From contig JAMPCJ010000011.1 in the NCBI GenBank assembly GCA_023666275.1, positions 1 through 64,000 on the forward strand: a DNA stretch of 64,000 bases, given 5' to 3'. The stretch is from Treponema brennaborense. Its GTDB lineage: Bacteria; Spirochaetota; Spirochaetia; Treponematales; Treponemataceae. The notes beneath the pieces were generated by a model. The model saw nothing but the letters and a program-made list of their open reading frames with translations. It did no database searches and was not told the DNA's origin. Shown one piece after another: positions 22,862-31,731 of this stretch (position 1 is the first letter of the stretch; every line of letters begins with the position of its first letter). The translations under genes and the position numbers were made by a program.

Positions 22862-22906
22862 TGTAAGCGTCAGCTTTGCAGACCAACATCATATCAGGAG
22901 AAAATT

Positions 22907-24973
22907 GTGGAAGAACGAATGACCCGCGTAATCAAGGTGGATAAAGACAAATGCGTAAACTGCCACAGATGCATTGCAGTATGTCCGGCGAAAATGTGCA
23001 ACGACGGTTCCGGCAGCTACGTAAAAATAAACGAAAAACTATGCCTTGGCTGCGGTTCCTGCATAGACGCCTGCACGCATAACGCGCGGATAGGCATTGA
23101 CGACGCTCCGCAGTTTTTCGAAGACCTGAAAAACGGACAAAAAATCATTGCCATTTCGGCGCCGGCTGTCGCCGTCAACTTTCAGGGAAAAGATCTTGAG
23201 CTGAACGGCTGGCTGCGCTCGCTGGGCGTAAAAGCGGTATTCGACGTCGGATTCGGCGCGGAACTGACGACAAAATCGTATGTGGAATACATGAAGAAAA
23301 ACAATCCCGACTGCCTTATATCGCAGCCGTGTCCGGTTCTCGTTATGTTTATCGAATTATACCGCCCCGACCTCATCAATTATCTCGCGCCGGTTCACAG
23401 CCCCATGCTGCATACCGTCCGGATGATCCGCGAATTTTATCCGGAATATGCGGACTGCAAAATAGCCGCAATTTCGCCGTGCTACGCAAAACGGCATGAA
23501 TTCGACGAAACCGGACTGTGCGATTACAACGTAACGATGCGTTCAATCGATGCGTATTTTGCGGAACACGGCGTTTCTCTGGCGGATTTTCCGCAAGCCG
23601 ATTACGCAAACCAGCCGGCGGAACGCGGCGTACTGTATTCCGCGCCGGGCGGGCTCATGCGCACCGCGGAACGCTTTTTGCCGGCAGTTTCGGACATCAC
23701 GCGCAAAATCGAAGGGCAGCCGCACGTGTTTGAATATTTCGCCAATTTGGCAAAATCGATACAGCAGGGAGAAAAGCCCGTTTTCAAGCTGATAGACTGC
23801 CTCAACTGCACAAAAGGCTGCAACGGCGGCGCGGGCACAACGGATCACAACATGCCGCTTGACAAAATGGAAGGTTTCGTTGAAAGACGAAGCAACGCAC
23901 GCCGCGATTTGTGGAAGAAAAAAGGTCTGAAAAAACTCAATAAAACAATCGATGCATACTGGAAGCCGGAATTATACAAGCGGACGTATATAAACAGAAA
24001 TTCCATATTCAAATCGGAAATAAAGCGGCCGACCGACGACGACATACAGCAAATATTTCACAACATGAAGAAATTCAATAAAGAAGATTTGCTGAACTGC
24101 GGTTCATGCGGATACAACAGCTGCGAACAAATGGCGGTCGCCATTTTCAACGGACTTAACAAACCCGAAAACTGCCGCCACTATATGATGCTGGAAGTTC
24201 AGAAAATGAACGAAGATCATCGCGAAGAACTGAAATCGGCAATGAAACAAACTTCCGCGAAAGCCGTCGAAAATATCGAAACCGTGGAACAGAAAACGGA
24301 AAATCTCGTAAGCGCCGCGAAAGACATGACTTCCAGCGTGGCGACTTCTTCCGCCGCAATCGAAGAAATGATAGCGAACATCAATTCAATCAGCAGAATT
24401 CTCGAAAAAAACGCGCAGGCTGTTACCGATCTCGACAGTGCCACGCAGACCGGCAAAACAAACCTCGAAAATGTCAGCGTAATTGTCAACTCAATAGAAG
24501 AAAATTCGAAAGGCTTGAGCGAAATGAGTTCCGTCATTCAAAATATCGCAAGCCAGACCAATTTGCTCGCTATGAATGCCGCCATAGAAGCGGCGCACGC
24601 GGGGGAATACGGAAAAGGTTTTGCCGTTGTTGCGGATGAAATCCGCAAGCTTGCCGAAAATTCGGGCTCGGAGGCAAAGAAAATCTCCGATGTTTTGAAA
24701 AAAATCACATCGCTTATCACATCCGCTTTCGGCACAACGGTTTCCGCGCAAAAAGATTTTGAAAATGTCGTATCGCTTTCTTCCAAAGTCATGGATCAGG
24801 AATTTGTCATGAAAAAAGCAATGGAAGAACAAAACGAAGGCGGCGCGCAGCTGCTTCAGGCATTGCAGCAAATGAAAGACCTTACAAGCTCGGTTTCTTC
24901 CGGCGCGGAAACGCTTCGGGACAATACGGAACAGATAAAAAAATCGCTTTTAATGCTGGGAAGCGAACAGTAA
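22907..24973 (+). CDS. [FeFe]-hydrogenase-like sensor fused to a chemoreceptor signalling domain
   Basis: 688 residues from GTG, which AGGAG precedes by 6 bp; an ATG lies 12 bp inside. Order: two 4Fe-4S sites (Cys16, 19, 22, 26 and Cys46, 49, 52, 56); a hydrogenase-like domain with SQPCP (Cys142), SPCYAKRHE (Cys192) and [11 protein letters not shown] (Cys298, 301, 305), counterparts of the three H-cluster motifs in altered form; a CGSCGYNSC Fe-S segment near 400; then a long coiled coil with the MCP hairpin tip [20 protein letters not shown]. No transmembrane segment is seen, so it is a cytoplasmic receptor. Probably senses hydrogen or redox state and signals to CheA. Confidence 0.88.
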
Positions 24974-25104: not shown

Positions 25105-25545
25105 ATGAATCAAGATGCCATTAAAGCAAAAGAATTATTTTCAAGCGGCAAGTACACGTGCGTGCTGGTTAAAGACGGCGTTGTGCATACAAGCGTATTG
25201 ACGGGAATCGCGCCGCTGCTTGCTTTTATCGAAAACGGCACGGCGCTTGAAGGATTTTCCGCGGCGGATAAAATTGTGGGCAAAGCGGCTGCGCTGCTGT
25301 TCACGTTTCTCGGCATAAAAGAATTGTACACGCCCGTTTTAAGCGAAGCGGCGCGCGGCGTCCTTGAAGCACACGGCATACTGTATCACGCGGATACGAT
25401 TGCCGAAGAAATCATCAACAGAAGCGGAACGGGATGCTGTCCCATGGAATGCGCCGTGCGGCATATTTCAGAGCCGAAAGACGCAGTTCCGGCACTGAAA
25501 AACGCGCTTTCCCTGCTCCGCGCGAAAAGCCGTCCCGATACTTAA
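25105..25545 (+). CDS. DUF1893 family protein
   Basis: 146 residues after AGGAA. The sequence GKYTCVLVKDGVVHTS, the core FSAADKIVGKAAALLFTFLGIKELYT and the end NRSGTGCCPMECAV match the DUF1893 family as I remember it; its function is not established. The conserved Cys pair near the C-terminus could bind metal. It lies 131 bp behind the hydrogenase-like receptor gene, which may hint at a redox link. It is convergent with the next XRE gene across palindromic array 2. Confidence 0.8.
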   Translation: MNQDAIKAKELFSSGKYTCVLVKDGVVHTSVLTGIAPLLAFIENGTALEGFSAADKIVGKAAALLFTFLGIKELYTPVLSEAARGVLEAHGILYHADTIAEEIINRSGTGCCPMECAVRHISEPKDAVPALKNALSLLRAKSRPDT

Positions 25546-26093: not shown

Positions 26094-26168
26094 TTTTAGC
26101 GATTTTTGGAAAAGATTGTTTTTACTTTTGTGTTGATTTTATTAAACTTTTGTGCTATGCATGAATGT

Positions 26169-26849
26169 ATGCCGAATTTTCAAACCAAATCGCGTGAACG
26201 CGTGCGCGACCACGGCGAAGTGTTCACCGCCGAACGCGAAGTAAAAGCCATGTGCGACTTGGTAAAAGACGAATGCGAGCGCATAGACAGCCGTTTTTTG
26301 GAACCCGCCTGCGGCGACGGCAATTTTCTTGCCGAAATCCTTGCGCGAAAACTTGCGGCAGTCAAGCGCAGGTACGGCAAAAGTCATTTCGACTACGAAA
26401 AAAACGCCGTGCTTGCCGCGTCGAGCATTTACGGCGTGGACATCCTGCTTGACAACGTGCTCGCATGCCGCAATCGCATGTTTGCGATTTGGGACGCAGA
26501 ATACGGCGCCGCCTGCAAAAACGAATGCAGCGATCAAACGCGCGAGGCGGTCAAGTTTATTCTTTCGCACAATATCGTCTGCGGCAACGCCCTTACGCTT
26601 AAATGCGTGGACGAAAACGCAAACGACACCGCCGAGCCGATTGTGTTTTCCGAATGGGCATTTGTTTCCGAAAGCCGAATGCAGCGGCGCGACTACACAT
26701 TCGCCGCGCTTTTGAACACGGCGGAATATAACGAAAAAAACAAGGAAAAAGGACAGCGCAGTTTGTTCGCAAACGAAGAAGGCGAAGACGAGCCGACATT
26801 CCTGAAACAATACGTATCGCATTACAGGAGCGTGCATGAAAACGGCTGA
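26169..26849 (+). CDS. Adenine methylase-like protein, first ORF
   Basis: 226 residues from MPNFQTKSRERV; upstream starts add a stretch unlike the family, and no ribosome site is clear. HGEVFTAEREVKAM and FLEPACGDGNFLAEIL (motif I, AdoMet loop) are typical of N6-adenine methylases, but no NPPY motif follows, so on its own it lacks the catalytic tetrapeptide. The next ORF overlaps by 14 bp and has both motifs. The two may form a heteromeric methylase, or this ORF may be a degenerate duplicate. Confidence 0.75.
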   Translation: MPNFQTKSRERVRDHGEVFTAEREVKAMCDLVKDECERIDSRFLEPACGDGNFLAEILARKLAAVKRRYGKSHFDYEKNAVLAASSIYGVDILLDNVLACRNRMFAIWDAEYGAACKNECSDQTREAVKFILSHNIVCGNALTLKCVDENANDTAEPIVFSEWAFVSESRMQRRDYTFAALLNTAEYNEKNKEKGQRSLFANEEGEDEPTFLKQYVSHYRSVHENG

Positions 26850-28332
26850 CACAATATTCGGAAACGTTTATAACCCCGACGTGCTTTCCTGCCTTGCGAA
26901 TTTGAGCAGCGACGAAGTTTTTACGCCGCCGGAAATCGTAAATCAGATGCTCGACATGCTGCCGCAGGAATTGTTCGAAAATCCCGACACGACCTTTTTA
27001 GACCCCGCGTGCAAAACGGGCGTGTTCCTGCGCGAAATCGCCAAGCGGCTTATAAAAGGCTTGGAGCCGCAATTCCCCGACTTGCAGGAACGCATAGACC
27101 ATATATTCCGCAAGCAGCTTTTCGGGATTGCCATAACCGAGCTTACGAGCCTGCTTTCGCGGCGCAGCGTGTATTGCAGCAAAAGAGCGGACGGCGAGTT
27201 CTCGGTGAGCCGCTTTGACAGCGCCGAAGGGAATATCCGTTTTAAGCGCATAAAGCACACCTGGAAAAACGGCAAATGCATCCACTGCGGCGCAAGCCGG
27301 ACCGAATACGAGCGCGGCGGCGAGCTGGAAACCCACGCTTACGAGTTTATTCACACTACCGATTTGGAGAAGTTATTCGATATGAAATTCGACGTTATCA
27401 TAAGCAATCCGCCGTATCAACTGAGCGACGGCGGCGCACAAGCGAGCGCAATTCCTATTTATCAGCATTTTGTAGAAACAGCAAAAAAATTAAAGCCGAG
27501 ATATTTGACGATGATTATTCCCGCAAGATGGTTTTCAGGAGGAAGAGGTTTGGATAATTTCCGTGCTATAATGCTGCATGACAAAAGAGTTTGCTATTTA
27601 TACGACTTTTTTGATTCAAACGATTGTTTTCCTGGAATAGATTTGTCTGGTGGCGTCTGTTACTTTTTGTGGGACAGAGAATATAACGGGAAATGTAAAG
27701 TTACTTCAAACTATCAAGATAAAGTCACTACACTAAGTCGTTATTTGATAACAGACGATGATGTGTTTGTTAGATTTAATGAAGCAGTTAGTATTTTAAC
27801 GAAAATTTTTAATCATCAAGAGAAAAAATTTTCAACTTTGATAAGTTCAAGCAAACCATTTGGGTTACGTACATTTTATAAGCCAAAAGATATTGGAAAA
27901 ATTCATTTATACGCTTATCCCAAAGCGGGATATTGTGACTTACAAGATATTGTAGTAAATCAAGAATTTATCGATAAATACAAAGTGTTTATTTCCGCAG
28001 CATATGGTGAAAGAGGTGCATTCCCATATTTAGTAATAGGAAAACCATTTTTAGGTGAACCTAATTCTATTTGTACTGAAACATATCTTATGATAAATCC
28101 AACAACAAGCAAACTAGAATGTGAAAATGTTATATCATACATAAAAACAAAATTTTTTCGATTCCTTGTTTTATTAAGAAAAAACACGCAACACGCAGTT
28201 AAAGCCGTCTATCAATTTGTTCCTATGCAGAACTTTTCCAAGTCTTGGACTGATGAAGAACTGTACGCCAAATACAATCTCACGCAAGATGAAATCGACT
28301 TTATCGAAAGCATGGTTCGCCCTATGGAGTAA
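26836..28332 (+). CDS. N6-adenine DNA methylase, Eco57I-like
   Basis: 498 residues. DEVFTPPEIVNQMLD, motif I FLDPACKTGVFL (54-65), catalytic NPPY at 191-194 within FDVIISNPPYQLSDGG, then a target-recognition half. A Cys4-like CIHCG segment lies near 149. From about 27560 to 28250 the DNA is markedly AT-rich compared with the first half, which suggests an exchanged specificity domain. It methylates adenine to protect host DNA; the likely nuclease is the GIY-YIG-like helicase 0.8 kb downstream, beyond an inverted toxin-antitoxin pair. Confidence 0.88.
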   Translation: MKTADTIFGNVYNPDVLSCLANLSSDEVFTPPEIVNQMLDMLPQELFENPDTTFLDPACKTGVFLREIAKRLIKGLEPQFPDLQERIDHIFRKQLFGIAITELTSLLSRRSVYCSKRADGEFSVSRFDSAEGNIRFKRIKHTWKNGKCIHCGASRTEYERGGELETHAYEFIHTTDLEKLFDMKFDVIISNPPYQLSDGGAQASAIPIYQHFVETAKKLKPRYLTMIIPARWFSGGRGLDNFRAIMLHDKRVCYLYDFFDSNDCFPGIDLSGGVCYFLWDREYNGKCKVTSNYQDKVTTLSRYLITDDDVFVRFNEAVSILTKIFNHQEKKFSTLISSSKPFGLRTFYKPKDIGKIHLYAYPKAGYCDLQDIVVNQEFIDKYKVFISAAYGERGAFPYLVIGKPFLGEPNSICTETYLMINPTTSKLECENVISYIKTKFFRFLVLLRKNTQHAVKAVYQFVPMQNFSKSWTDEELYAKYNLTQDEIDFIESMVRPME

Positions 28333-28355
28333 ATTGTCTTATGCGCATCCAAACA

Positions 28356-28655
28356 TCACTTCCCGAACAAGTCGGCGTGCGTGCCTGTGCGGATCAGTTC
28401 CAAAACGAGCACATCTTCTTTAATTTGGTAAATCAAAAGCCAGTCCGGGCGGATGTGGCACTCATAATGGTTTTTCCACTTTCCTTCCAAAGCGTGGTCG
28501 TTGTATTTTTCGGGGAGCGTTTCGCCGTTCGCGAGAAGTTTTACAATGGGATAAAGTTCTTTTATGTCCAGCCCTCTTTTCTTTGCGAGTTTGATTTCCT
28601 TTTTGAATTTAGAGGTCCCGCGGACTGTATATTTTGCGTTTTCAAACGCTACCAT
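28356..28655 (-). CDS. yafQ: YafQ-type mRNA interferase toxin
   Basis: 99 residues: YTVRGTSKFKKEIKLAKKRGLDIKEL, then DHALEGKWKNHYECHIRPDWLLIYQI and LELIRTGTHADLF. The last part holds the RelE/YafQ-fold active-site histidines and ends at HADLF as in YafQ. These toxins cut mRNA on the ribosome. It overlaps the antitoxin gene upstream by 7 bp. The pair is opposite in direction to the methylase and helicase genes that flank it. Confidence 0.92.
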   Translation of the reverse strand: MVAFENAKYTVRGTSKFKKEIKLAKKRGLDIKELYPIVKLLANGETLPEKYNDHALEGKWKNHYECHIRPDWLLIYQIKEDVLVLELIRTGTHADLFGK

Positions 28656-28966
28656 TTTTTCATATCCTCAAAAAGTTCCTCCACGTTGTCATACAAACCG
28701 TATTTCTTGGGATTTTTCTTGTATTTTTCGGGATTCTTCGCGTACTTCGCAAGAAATCTGTCGCCCTCTTTCATCGCGCGGATTGTTGCCCTGTTCGGTT
28801 TTTCTTCGGGATATTCCACTTTGAACGGAATGCCGCGGTGCAGAATCGCCTGCCGCAAAAAGACGTTCACCGCATCGCTCAAGGTGAGCCCCAATCCTTC
28901 GAAAAGCTGCGAGGCTTCCGCCTTTACGTCCTCGTCAATGCGAATATTCGTGCTTACCGATGCCAT
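28649..28966 (-). CDS. dinJ: RelB/DinJ-type antitoxin
   Basis: 105 residues. The ribbon-helix-helix start TNIRIDEDVKAEASQLFEGLGLTLSDAVNVFLRQ is typical of DinJ, and PFKVEYPEEKPN starts the toxin-binding part. The acidic/lysine C-terminal extension (KYKKNPKKYGLYDNVEELFEDMKKW) is longer than in E. coli DinJ. It neutralises YafQ and represses its own promoter in the gap before the dispersed repeat. Confidence 0.9.
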   Translation of the reverse strand: MASVSTNIRIDEDVKAEASQLFEGLGLTLSDAVNVFLRQAILHRGIPFKVEYPEEKPNRATIRAMKEGDRFLAKYAKNPEKYKKNPKKYGLYDNVEELFEDMKKW

Positions 28967-29069
28967 GTTTTTCTCCCTTTGGTTCGTGCTTTTATGCGCA
29001 CATCATACATCAAAATATGCCGTTTGTAAATACATTGTAAATCGAAAACTCGGCGCATTGTTTGCCGCT

Positions 29070-29146
29070 GTAGGCGAAGCAATCTATTGCGCGGATCGCT
29101 TCGCCTACGGCTCGCGATGACGGTGCGACGAAGCAATCTATATTTC
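29070..29146. repeat. Dispersed inverted repeat, GATTGCTTCG family
   Basis: Perfect arms GTAGGCGAAGC (29070-29080) and GCTTCGCCTAC (29098-29108), then GCTCGCGATGAC and a further GACGAAGCAATC to 29138. It lies between the antitoxin gene start and the helicase gene, close to the presumed promoters of both. Confidence 0.8.
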
Positions 29147-29157
29147 ATGGAGCAAAA

Positions 29158-31731
29158 ATGAAAGAAAACGATTTTTTTCCCGAACGTCCGAAACTTACGC
29201 CCACGATTTACGCCTATGAATTGCCCGGCGTTCCGTCGCACGAGGGCTATATCAAAGTGGGCTATACCGACCGCTCCGCCGAAGAGCGCATCAAAGAGCA
29301 GCTGCACACAAGCGCCGTGCCTTACAAAATAGTATTGAAAGAATCGGCAATGCGCGCGGACGGCACTTCTTTCCGCGATGCCGACGTGCACAAAATACTG
29401 CGCCGCAAAGGTTTCAGGCAGCTCAACGAAGGCAAAGACAAAAACGAATGGTTTGCGTGCACGGCGGACGACGTGCTTTCGGCACTGCTCGAATTGCGCG
29501 ACGGCATTATATCCGAAGAAAACCGCACGCTCGCTTTCAAAATGCGCCCCGAACAGACACGCGCCGTGCAGAAGACCATGGCGTATTTCGAAAGCGCAAG
29601 CCGCGAAGATGCGGACAAGCCTCCCAAATTTTTATGGAACGCGAAAATGCGTTTCGGCAAAACGTTTGCCGCGTATCAGCTTGCGCGCGAAATGGATTTG
29701 AAGCGCGTTCTCGTGCTCACATTCAAGCCCGCCGTGGAATCCGCCTGGCGCGAGGATTTGATTTCGCATGTCGATTTCGAGGGCTGGCAGTTTGTCTCGA
29801 ACAAAGACGCGCGCGACAGCAGCGTGAATATCGACGAGCAGTTTGCCGCGTGCGACAAGTCGCGGCCGATTGTCGTCTTCGGTTCGTTTCAGGATTTGCT
29901 CGGCACAAACGAAAGCGGCGGCATCAAGGCGAAAAACGAATTCATTCACACCGCAAACTGGGACTTGGTGATTTTCGACGAATACCATTTCGGCGCCTGG
30001 CGCGAGAATGCGAAAAAGCTGTTCGAAGATCCCGACGACGAAGCAAACGCCGATTTCGATGCGGAACAGTACAAGCGCACCGAGGCGGACAACGCATGCA
30101 ACGAAGATTTTCTGCCGATTACCGCGCGCCGTTATTTGTTCCTTTCGGGCACGCCGTTCCGCGCGCTTAACAGCGGCGAATTTATAGAAGACCAAATCTA
30201 CAACTGGACATATTCGGACGAACAGCGCGCCAAAGTACAGTGGCGCGGCTCTGACAATCCGTATCTTGCCCTGCCCCGCATGGTTTTGCTTACCTACCGC
30301 ATTCCCGAAAGCATCCGGCAGATTGCCCTGCACGGCGAATTCGACGAGTTCGACTTGAACGTGTTTTTTTCGGCGGAAGGAAAAGGCGCGGAAGCAAAGT
30401 TCGTGTACGAAAGCGAAGTGCAGAAATGGCTTGATTTAATTCGCGGCTCGTATCTGCCGAGCAGCATCGACGATTTGAAGCTCGGTCAGGACAAGCGCCC
30501 GCCGATGCCCTATTCGGACACGCGGCTTTTGAATGTGCTTTCGCATACGCTGTGGTTTCTGCCGAATGTGGCGAGCTGTCAGGCAATGGCGAATCTGCTC
30601 GCGCAAAAACAGAACGCGTTTTATCACGACTATAAAATCATCGTCTGCGCGGGCAGCGGCGCGGGAATCGGGGTTGACGCACTGCGCCCCGTGCTCGCCG
30701 CAATGGAAAAAAATCCGCTCGAAACAAAAACTATCACGCTTTCGTGCGGCAAACTCACGACGGGCGTTACGGTAAAGCCGTGGACGGGCATTTTCATGCT
30801 GCGCAATTTGTCATCGCCCGAAACGTATTTTCAGGCGGCATTCCGCGTGCAAAGCCCGTGGGAAATCACCGACGGCAGCGGCGATCGGCAGATTATGAAA
30901 AGGGAATGCTACATCTTCGACTTTGCGCTCGACAGGGCGCTGCGGCAGATTTCCGACTATTCCTGCCGCCTGGACGTCGAAGAAAGCAACCCCGAAAAGA
31001 AAGTCGCCGAGTTTATTTCGTTCTTGCCCGTGCTTGCTTATGACGGAAGCACGATGAAACAGATTAACGCGCAGGACGTTCTCGATATTGCTATGGCAGG
31101 CACGAGCGCAACGCTGCTCGCCAAGCGCTGGGAATCGGCGCTGCTTGTAAACGTAGACAACGAAACGCTTTCGCGGCTCTTGAACAACAAGGACGCGCTC
31201 GATGCGATTATGAAAATCGAAGGCTTCCGTTCGCTCAATTCCGACATCGAAACAATCATCAACAAATCGGGCATCGTGAAAAAAGCGAAAAAAGAAGGCG
31301 GCAGTCTTTCCCAAAAAGAAAAGGCCGAGGTTTCCGCAGCGGAAAAAGAATACAAGTCCAAGCGCAAACAAATTCAGGAAAAGCTGATAAAGTTTGCGAC
31401 GCGCATTCCCGTGTTCATGTATCTCACCGACTGCCGCGAGCGCTCGCTCAAAGACGTGATTACGCAGGTGGAGCCTTCGCTTTTCAAAAAAGTAACGGGG
31501 CTCGGCGTAAAGGATTTCGAACTGCTGTGCTCGCTCGGCGTTTTCAACGCGAGCTTGATGAACGACGCCATTTTCAAATTCAAGCGTTATGAAGATTCGT
31601 CTCTTTCCTATACGGGCATAGACCGCCATGCGGATGAAAAAGAAGTCGGCGGCTGGGATACGGAAATCCGCCGCGAGGAATACGAGCGGCTTTTTTACGG
31701 ACAGCAGGCAGGGGTAAAATCAGGGCAATGA
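29158..31731 (+). CDS. GIY-YIG-like nuclease fused to a DEAD/DEAH-type helicase
   Basis: 857 residues. The N-terminal 100 (IYAYELPG at 17-24, GYIKVGYTDRSAEERIKEQ from 30) resemble the T5orf172/GIY-YIG nuclease fold. Then comes a superfamily-2 ATPase: Walker A in KMRFGKT (163-169), box DEYH at 274-277, SGTPFRAL motif III, and TYFQAAFRVQSPW as motif VI. The C-terminal part includes a charged coiled coil (KKAKKEGGSLSQKEKAE). With the methylase ORFs this makes a probable restriction system in which this protein is the translocase and nuclease. The antitoxin-toxin pair separates it from the methylases. Confidence 0.82.
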   Translation: MKENDFFPERPKLTPTIYAYELPGVPSHEGYIKVGYTDRSAEERIKEQLHTSAVPYKIVLKESAMRADGTSFRDADVHKILRRKGFRQLNEGKDKNEWFACTADDVLSALLELRDGIISEENRTLAFKMRPEQTRAVQKTMAYFESASREDADKPPKFLWNAKMRFGKTFAAYQLAREMDLKRVLVLTFKPAVESAWREDLISHVDFEGWQFVSNKDARDSSVNIDEQFAACDKSRPIVVFGSFQDLLGTNESGGIKAKNEFIHTANWDLVIFDEYHFGAWRENAKKLFEDPDDEANADFDAEQYKRTEADNACNEDFLPITARRYLFLSGTPFRALNSGEFIEDQIYNWTYSDEQRAKVQWRGSDNPYLALPRMVLLTYRIPESIRQIALHGEFDEFDLNVFFSAEGKGAEAKFVYESEVQKWLDLIRGSYLPSSIDDLKLGQDKRPPMPYSDTRLLNVLSHTLWFLPNVASCQAMANLLAQKQNAFYHDYKIIVCAGSGAGIGVDALRPVLAAMEKNPLETKTITLSCGKLTTGVTVKPWTGIFMLRNLSSPETYFQAAFRVQSPWEITDGSGDRQIMKRECYIFDFALDRALRQISDYSCRLDVEESNPEKKVAEFISFLPVLAYDGSTMKQINAQDVLDIAMAGTSATLLAKRWESALLVNVDNETLSRLLNNKDALDAIMKIEGFRSLNSDIETIINKSGIVKKAKKEGGSLSQKEKAEVSAAEKEYKSKRKQIQEKLIKFATRIPVFMYLTDCRERSLKDVITQVEPSLFKKVTGLGVKDFELLCSLGVFNASLMNDAIFKFKRYEDSSLSYTGIDRHADEKEVGGWDTEIRREEYERLFYGQQAGVKSGQ

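Follow-up and report, generated by a model that had tools for sequence, protein, structure and literature searches.

A soluble chemoreceptor gene with a hydrogenase-type input

We analysed a 64,000-nt stretch of a Treponema brennaborense draft genome (contig JAMPCJ010000011.1, positions 1 to 64,000; hereafter the window), in which a single open reading frame joins a hydrogenase-type module to the signalling part of a methyl-accepting chemotaxis protein (MCP; Table 1). A Shine-Dalgarno sequence AGGAG (22896-22900) lies 6 nt 5' of the start codon, and promoter and terminator scans stayed at chance level. In addition to the H-domain, Pfam recognises Fer4-type domains (residues 4-60), PF04060 (396-424, E 1.4e-8) and MCPsignal PF00015 (511-659, E 2.2e-29). 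Domain assignments and motif positions agree with the preliminary description, made from the DNA letters alone, according to which two ferredoxin sites, hydrogenase-like motifs, a further Fe-S segment and an MCP tip occur in one protein. The claimed lack of a membrane span was borne out as well: no transmembrane segment was found, the highest 19-residue Kyte-Doolittle mean being 1.11. This architecture is not a product of chance, since 21 orthologs, with 47-61% identity over ~420 aa, keep the same cysteines; the ferredoxin module also carries an extra conserved cysteine, C31.

In the AlphaFold2 model (pLDDT 87.9, 26 sequences in the alignment) the N-terminal part adopts a hydrogenase fold, with CbA5H, CpI and DdH as the best Foldseek and VIA matches (VIA Z 35-41). 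The C-terminal Fe-S motif ends with C423, and the first long modelled helix begins directly after this cysteine.

The downstream neighbour, a DUF1893 (TM1506) protein at 25105-25545 of the window, is not conserved beside the receptor family. Further along, at 26106-31731, what by eye appears to be a restriction-modification island is made up of a large ORF resembling helicases and two resembling DNA methyltransferases, amid which we noticed, also by eye, a RelB/YafQ-like toxin-antitoxin pair (minus strand, 28356-28966).

Table 1. Coordinates of the receptor gene and its features in the window
Feature	Position	Strand	Details
CDS, soluble hydrogenase-type chemoreceptor, 688 aa	22907..24973	+	GTG start, intact ORF
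2x[4Fe-4S] ferredoxin module	22931..23086	+	C16, C19, C22, C26; C46, C49, C52, C56
[FeFe]-hydrogenase-type H-domain, residues 79-309	23141..23833	+	Pfam PF02906 (Fe_hyd_lg_C), E 1.6e-31
L1 motif SQPCP, residues 139-143	23321..23335	+	ligand C142 kept; CpI C299 position is P
L2 motif SPCYAKRHE, residues 190-198	23474..23500	+	C192 and K195 (CpI K358) kept; M353 position is S
L3 motif with CLNC, 11 residues, 298-308	23798..23830	+	ligands C301 and C305 kept; M497 position is L
C-terminal Fe-S motif C398-x2-C401-x4-C406-x16-C423	24092..24178	+	PF04060
MCP antiparallel hairpin	24176..24964	+	helix 424-564, turn 565, helix 566-686 (AF2 model)
Candidate methylation segment SAAIEEMIA, residues 482-490	24350..24376	+	relaxed match only
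MCP tip, 39 residues, near-canonical	24551..24667	+	30-37 of 39 positions shared with ten further MCP tips of the genome

The active site is of the sensory type

In CpI, C299 is the proton-transfer residue, and K358 is known to hold the [2Fe] unit. Alignment to the CpI-type group A protein of the same genome reveals that all four cysteine ligands of [4Fe-4S]H are kept in the receptor, as are the equivalents of CpI P231, P324 and K358. The changes are confined to other positions: C299, M353 and M497 of the outer sphere are replaced by P, S and L, as in most orthologs, and near the [2Fe] site the equivalents of S232 and Q325 are A and M. Thus the motifs, earlier called altered, are indeed changed around the ligands, but the ligands themselves are all present. 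Nearly all orthologs retain these four cysteines and the K358 equivalent, and C298, a further cysteine shortly ahead of the third pair of ligands, is nearly invariant in the family, being missing in the more distant L032-L034.

The group A motif set (TSCCP / MPCxxK / xMAC, with the C299 cysteine) is not what the receptor carries; it shows instead the features of sensory groups C and D, with ligands kept, C299, M353 and M497 altered, two N-terminal [4Fe-4S] sites and a C-terminal Cx2Cx4Cx16C motif. Among published sensory hydrogenases P occupies the C299 position in ~10% and S the M353 position in ~32% (PMC10055695), and TamHydS shares the S and L of the receptor at M353 and M497 (PMC8163306). 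As read from the sequence, the changes in the receptor mark it as sensory, fall within the published range and by themselves are no proof that the H-cluster has been lost. The sensory enzymes TmHydS and TamHydS, with similar motif changes, continue to turn over H2, albeit slowly. The proposal that the changes indicate sensing rather than turnover therefore matches the sensory hydrogenases but was drawn too sharply.

TmHydS (Thermotoga maritima, group C with PAS) resembles the receptor in its two [4Fe-4S] sites, H-domain and C-terminal Cx2Cx4Cx16C motif, as well as in the replacement of C299, M353 and M497 with all ligands kept (PMC10055695, PMC8163306), but its output is PAS rather than MCP and its residues are A/G/S rather than P/S/L. 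In TamHydS (group D, M2e) the domain order is that of the receptor up to the C-terminal Fe-S domain (PMC8163306), whereas an output domain is missing. The local counterparts of both, namely the PAS-fused group C proteins and the D-like proteins with SSxCP in L1, form clades separate from the receptor.

A widespread family with exchangeable outputs

The 2.35 Mb draft genome, estimated to be 97.7% complete, encodes four PF02906 proteins, which by motif and domain order are a group A, a group B and a PAS-fused group C protein and the receptor. The group B protein has TSCCS in place of TSCCP, and group B-like and PAS-fused group C genes lie close together (G000:C14:16543-23998; L002, L003, L166).

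Orthologs of the receptor (at least ~45% identity) were present in 26 of 59 genomes, the set consisting of its own and those of 58 relatives from within its family and order. A scan of genome contigs located them in many Treponema assemblies from the gut, as well as in T. saccharophilum DSM 2985, T. ruminis RU1 and T. bryantii. No relative was found in viral contigs. Comparison of the best 80 of >500 loci gave no operon partner common to the family save hydEGF in five. E-values and absences here come from a first-pass search of mostly draft genomes, in which the controls behaved as expected. We conclude from these sequence comparisons that the receptor family occurs widely in Treponema and the order to which the genus belongs, and that it is strongly conserved there.

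In a tree of 49 rows with an arbitrary root, the receptor family and its sisters fall into one clade (100/99). Groups A and B, the PAS-fused group C and the D-like proteins of the local genomes form clades of their own, supported at 100/100 in every case, and stand apart from it. Within the receptor clade, the ferredoxin/H-domain/Fe-S module is joined to HisKA-HATPase-REC (L135), to GGDEF-EAL (L136-L138), to GGDEF-EAL-PAS (L139) and to a CheA-like PAS/Hpt-like/HATPase kinase (L140; only HATPase is called by Pfam, Hpt and PAS by eye). Of the sequence evidence for a sensory role of the module, this swapping of outputs among sister proteins is the strongest. The GGDEF-EAL fusions of L136-L139 suggest H2 or redox control of c-di-GMP.

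Several treponemes also have a 640-655 aa version of the receptor with a divergent tip. In two loci (L078:1913-6055 and L093:758-4878) such a copy, with the tip ADQTKIIAFNAELEAASSGEAGKNFHIVATEIRRLS, stands first in a tandem pair whose second member, of 697 aa, has the usual tip, and the two may form mixed receptors.

The link between hydrogenases and chemotaxis is not new as an idea, as HydDB already has a group C2, 'Chemotactic, putative', whose H-domain protein was proposed to sense H2 and to act via methyl-accepting chemotaxis proteins (PMC5037454); C2 candidates in clostridia were discarded by validation checks (PMC9431212). The receptor shares MCP coupling with C2 and carries MCPsignal on the same polypeptide; C2 is described in a classification table, the comparison with it is by description, and the tree covers the local A, B, PAS-fused C and D-like groups. 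A partial coverage of the literature returned no experiment on a 'chemotactic' [FeFe]-hydrogenase, and an earlier description of the fusion in termite treponemes is possible. Our analysis adds the breadth of the family, its separate clade, the swapping of outputs, the adjacency to hydEGF and the occurrence in hosts without maturases, the last of which is likely to surprise specialists and had no mention in the literature covered.

Proposed mode of action

The explanation we favour, with somewhat better than even confidence, is that of a cytoplasmic, CheA-coupled H2 or redox-taxis receptor with a sensory-type [FeFe]-hydrogenase as its input. H2 or the low-potential electron pool would react at the H-cluster, which would exchange electrons with the two N-terminal clusters; a resulting change in the H-domain may then pass via the C-terminal Fe-S domain, acting as a mechanical joint, into the coiled coil that starts at the last cysteine, and the MCP tip would shift CheA activity and so bring about H2 or redox taxis. 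We also considered that the C-terminal cluster might serve the MCP part as a redox relay, and ranked this lower. In TamHydS, H2 alters the secondary structure and the C-terminal cluster is not reduced under 1 atm H2 (PMC13104023), which argues for a joint rather than a wire. Points that count against the favoured explanation are the A and M residues near the [2Fe] site, the failure to find HydE, HydF or HydG in this genome and 11 other ortholog carriers, the lack of association between ortholog and HydEFG, the shorter hairpin and the missing match to a strict methylation consensus. The existence of orthologs in named strains from H2-rich guts (T. bryantii, T. ruminis, T. saccharophilum) puts H2 or redox taxis through a hydrogenase-type receptor within reach of experiment.

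Receptors in hosts without maturases

HydE, HydF and HydG scored over the cut-off in 27 of the 59 genomes each, and these were nearly the same genomes. All three were missing in 30, of which 26 nevertheless encode PF02906 proteins. Profile searches found none of the three in the genome of the receptor studied here, which is one of 12 ortholog carriers (out of 26) lacking the full set; a thirteenth, G037, has HydF only. Presence of the ortholog showed no association with HydEFG (13/13 vs 14/19, Fisher p 0.61; p 1.0 in genomes at least 90% complete).

A search for BATS-domain proteins, used as a net for divergent HydE or HydG, caught none in the receptor's own genome or in most of the maturase-less genomes, and the BATS proteins named in five other maturase-less genomes were BioB or ThiH, so we discarded the idea that divergent forms had been overlooked. 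The complete chromosome of T. ruminis has no HydG, and its sole BATS-domain protein is BioB, so that it has no HydE/HydG-type protein; its PF02906 proteins are limited to the fused receptor and one of group B. None of the three maturases was found in G014 or G031, each a single contig. An assembly gap is thus a possible cause of the absence in our draft genome, but not of the pattern seen in T. ruminis (HydE/HydG), G014 and G031.

Elsewhere, the receptor gene directly adjoins hydE, hydG and hydF, in several arrangements (L066, L080, L084, L114 and L117 among the best 80 of >500 loci; named by NCBIfam in L066 and L084), indicating that the receptor is meant to carry an H-cluster in some lineages. 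G015, an 81% complete draft, encodes HydE and HydG together with a HydF truncated at a contig end, yet no PF02906 protein other than the fused receptor was found in it.

In maturase-less hosts, either another route to the H-cluster exists or the receptor also works with [4Fe-4S] clusters alone. The second option, taken furthest, is a redox receptor that in this organism has no [2Fe] subcluster and reports ferredoxin or redox poise, or cluster damage by O2 or NO, to CheA, H2 sensing being ancestral and lost with HydEFG. We regard this as rather unlikely, yet it is the best of the alternatives. It accords with the lack of HydE, HydF and HydG in the searches of this genome and of any HydE/HydG-type protein in T. 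ruminis, with the independence of the ortholog from HydEFG, and with purifying selection on the H-domain in maturase-less pairs (receptor dN/dS 0.10-0.13). Against it, the active-site residues of the receptor are the same in hosts with and without maturases. Furthermore, no maturase-less ortholog examined has lost K195, and the complete TSCCP[GA]W / MPCxAK / [VI]MACxGGC set persists in the group A proteins of eleven genomes without maturases (G000:C14, L001 and L165; L175-L184 in G014, G031, G003, G018, G022, G035, G038, G039, G040 and G044). Because of the lysine and these group A sites, we lean towards the H-cluster reading over the Fe-S-only one. The sites also suggest that some route to the H-cluster remains; together with the unchanged receptor site, they led us to reject the argument that a genome without HydEFG must have a receptor without the [2Fe] site. 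For group A, dN/dS was 0.05-0.12 in three maturase-less pairs, one of which (L186/L188) has TSCSPGW in L1.

That the receptor is functional without HydE, HydF and HydG, through an unrecognised H-cluster route which also serves the group A enzymes or as a [4Fe-4S]-only redox-taxis sensor, we put at a little under an even chance. Its persistence in such hosts raises the question of whether there is another way to an H-cluster or whether hydrogenase domains have been reused as plain Fe-S redox sensors.

Possible coupling to the chemotaxis machinery

The genome encodes 13 MCPs over the cut-off and a Che set of two CheA, several CheW, CheR, CheB, CheX and CheY. One CheA belongs to a CheA-(CheW-CheR)-CheX-CheY cluster on contig C2, and the second is accompanied by CheR and CheB on contig C10. 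The receptor has the signalling hairpin and conserved tip of an MCP. One membrane MCP encoded in this genome shares 37 of the 39 tip positions with it, and nine others share 30-34. Its C-terminal arm extends 127 residues beyond the tip glutamate, compared to 174 in most of the other MCPs of the genome; with a hairpin 47 residues shorter, membership of the same receptor array is not assured. Coupling to CheA is possible in view of the tip and the available Che proteins. The strict methylation consensus had no match in the receptor.

Soluble MCP chemoreceptors likewise combine a CheA-binding tip and an antiparallel hairpin with the lack of a transmembrane span; they differ in using PAS, globin or similar inputs, where the receptor has a module of hydrogenase type in which four Fe-S sites are predicted. 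A hydrogen or redox taxis receptor had been named as the natural reading of the gene. The sensory role stands, given the HK-REC, GGDEF-EAL, CheA-like and MCP outputs of the clade, but H2 is a candidate rather than a secured ligand; the searches found no HydE, HydF or HydG in this genome.

It seems improbable that the receptor is a sensory hydrogenase serving another CheA-linked pathway or a separate cytoplasmic cluster in place of swimming taxis. The short hairpin of this soluble protein and the second CheA with its own CheR and CheB would fit such a role, but the tip nearly matches that of a membrane MCP, and the first CheA sits with CheW-CheR, CheX and CheY. Finally, a catalytic hydrogenase with an incidental MCP tail is very hard to sustain: the H-cluster ligands and ferredoxin relay are intact, but the C299 proton-transfer residue is P in the receptor and nearly all orthologs, and the protein branches apart from the group A and B enzymes among sisters with swapped outputs.

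The genome also has its own HydABC-type operon (L165:2026-7778, G000:C14), composed of genes for a 2Fe-2S thioredoxin-like protein, a HATPase, HydB and HydA. A CheW gene directly follows this operon; none was seen next to HydA at the remaining group A loci that we checked.
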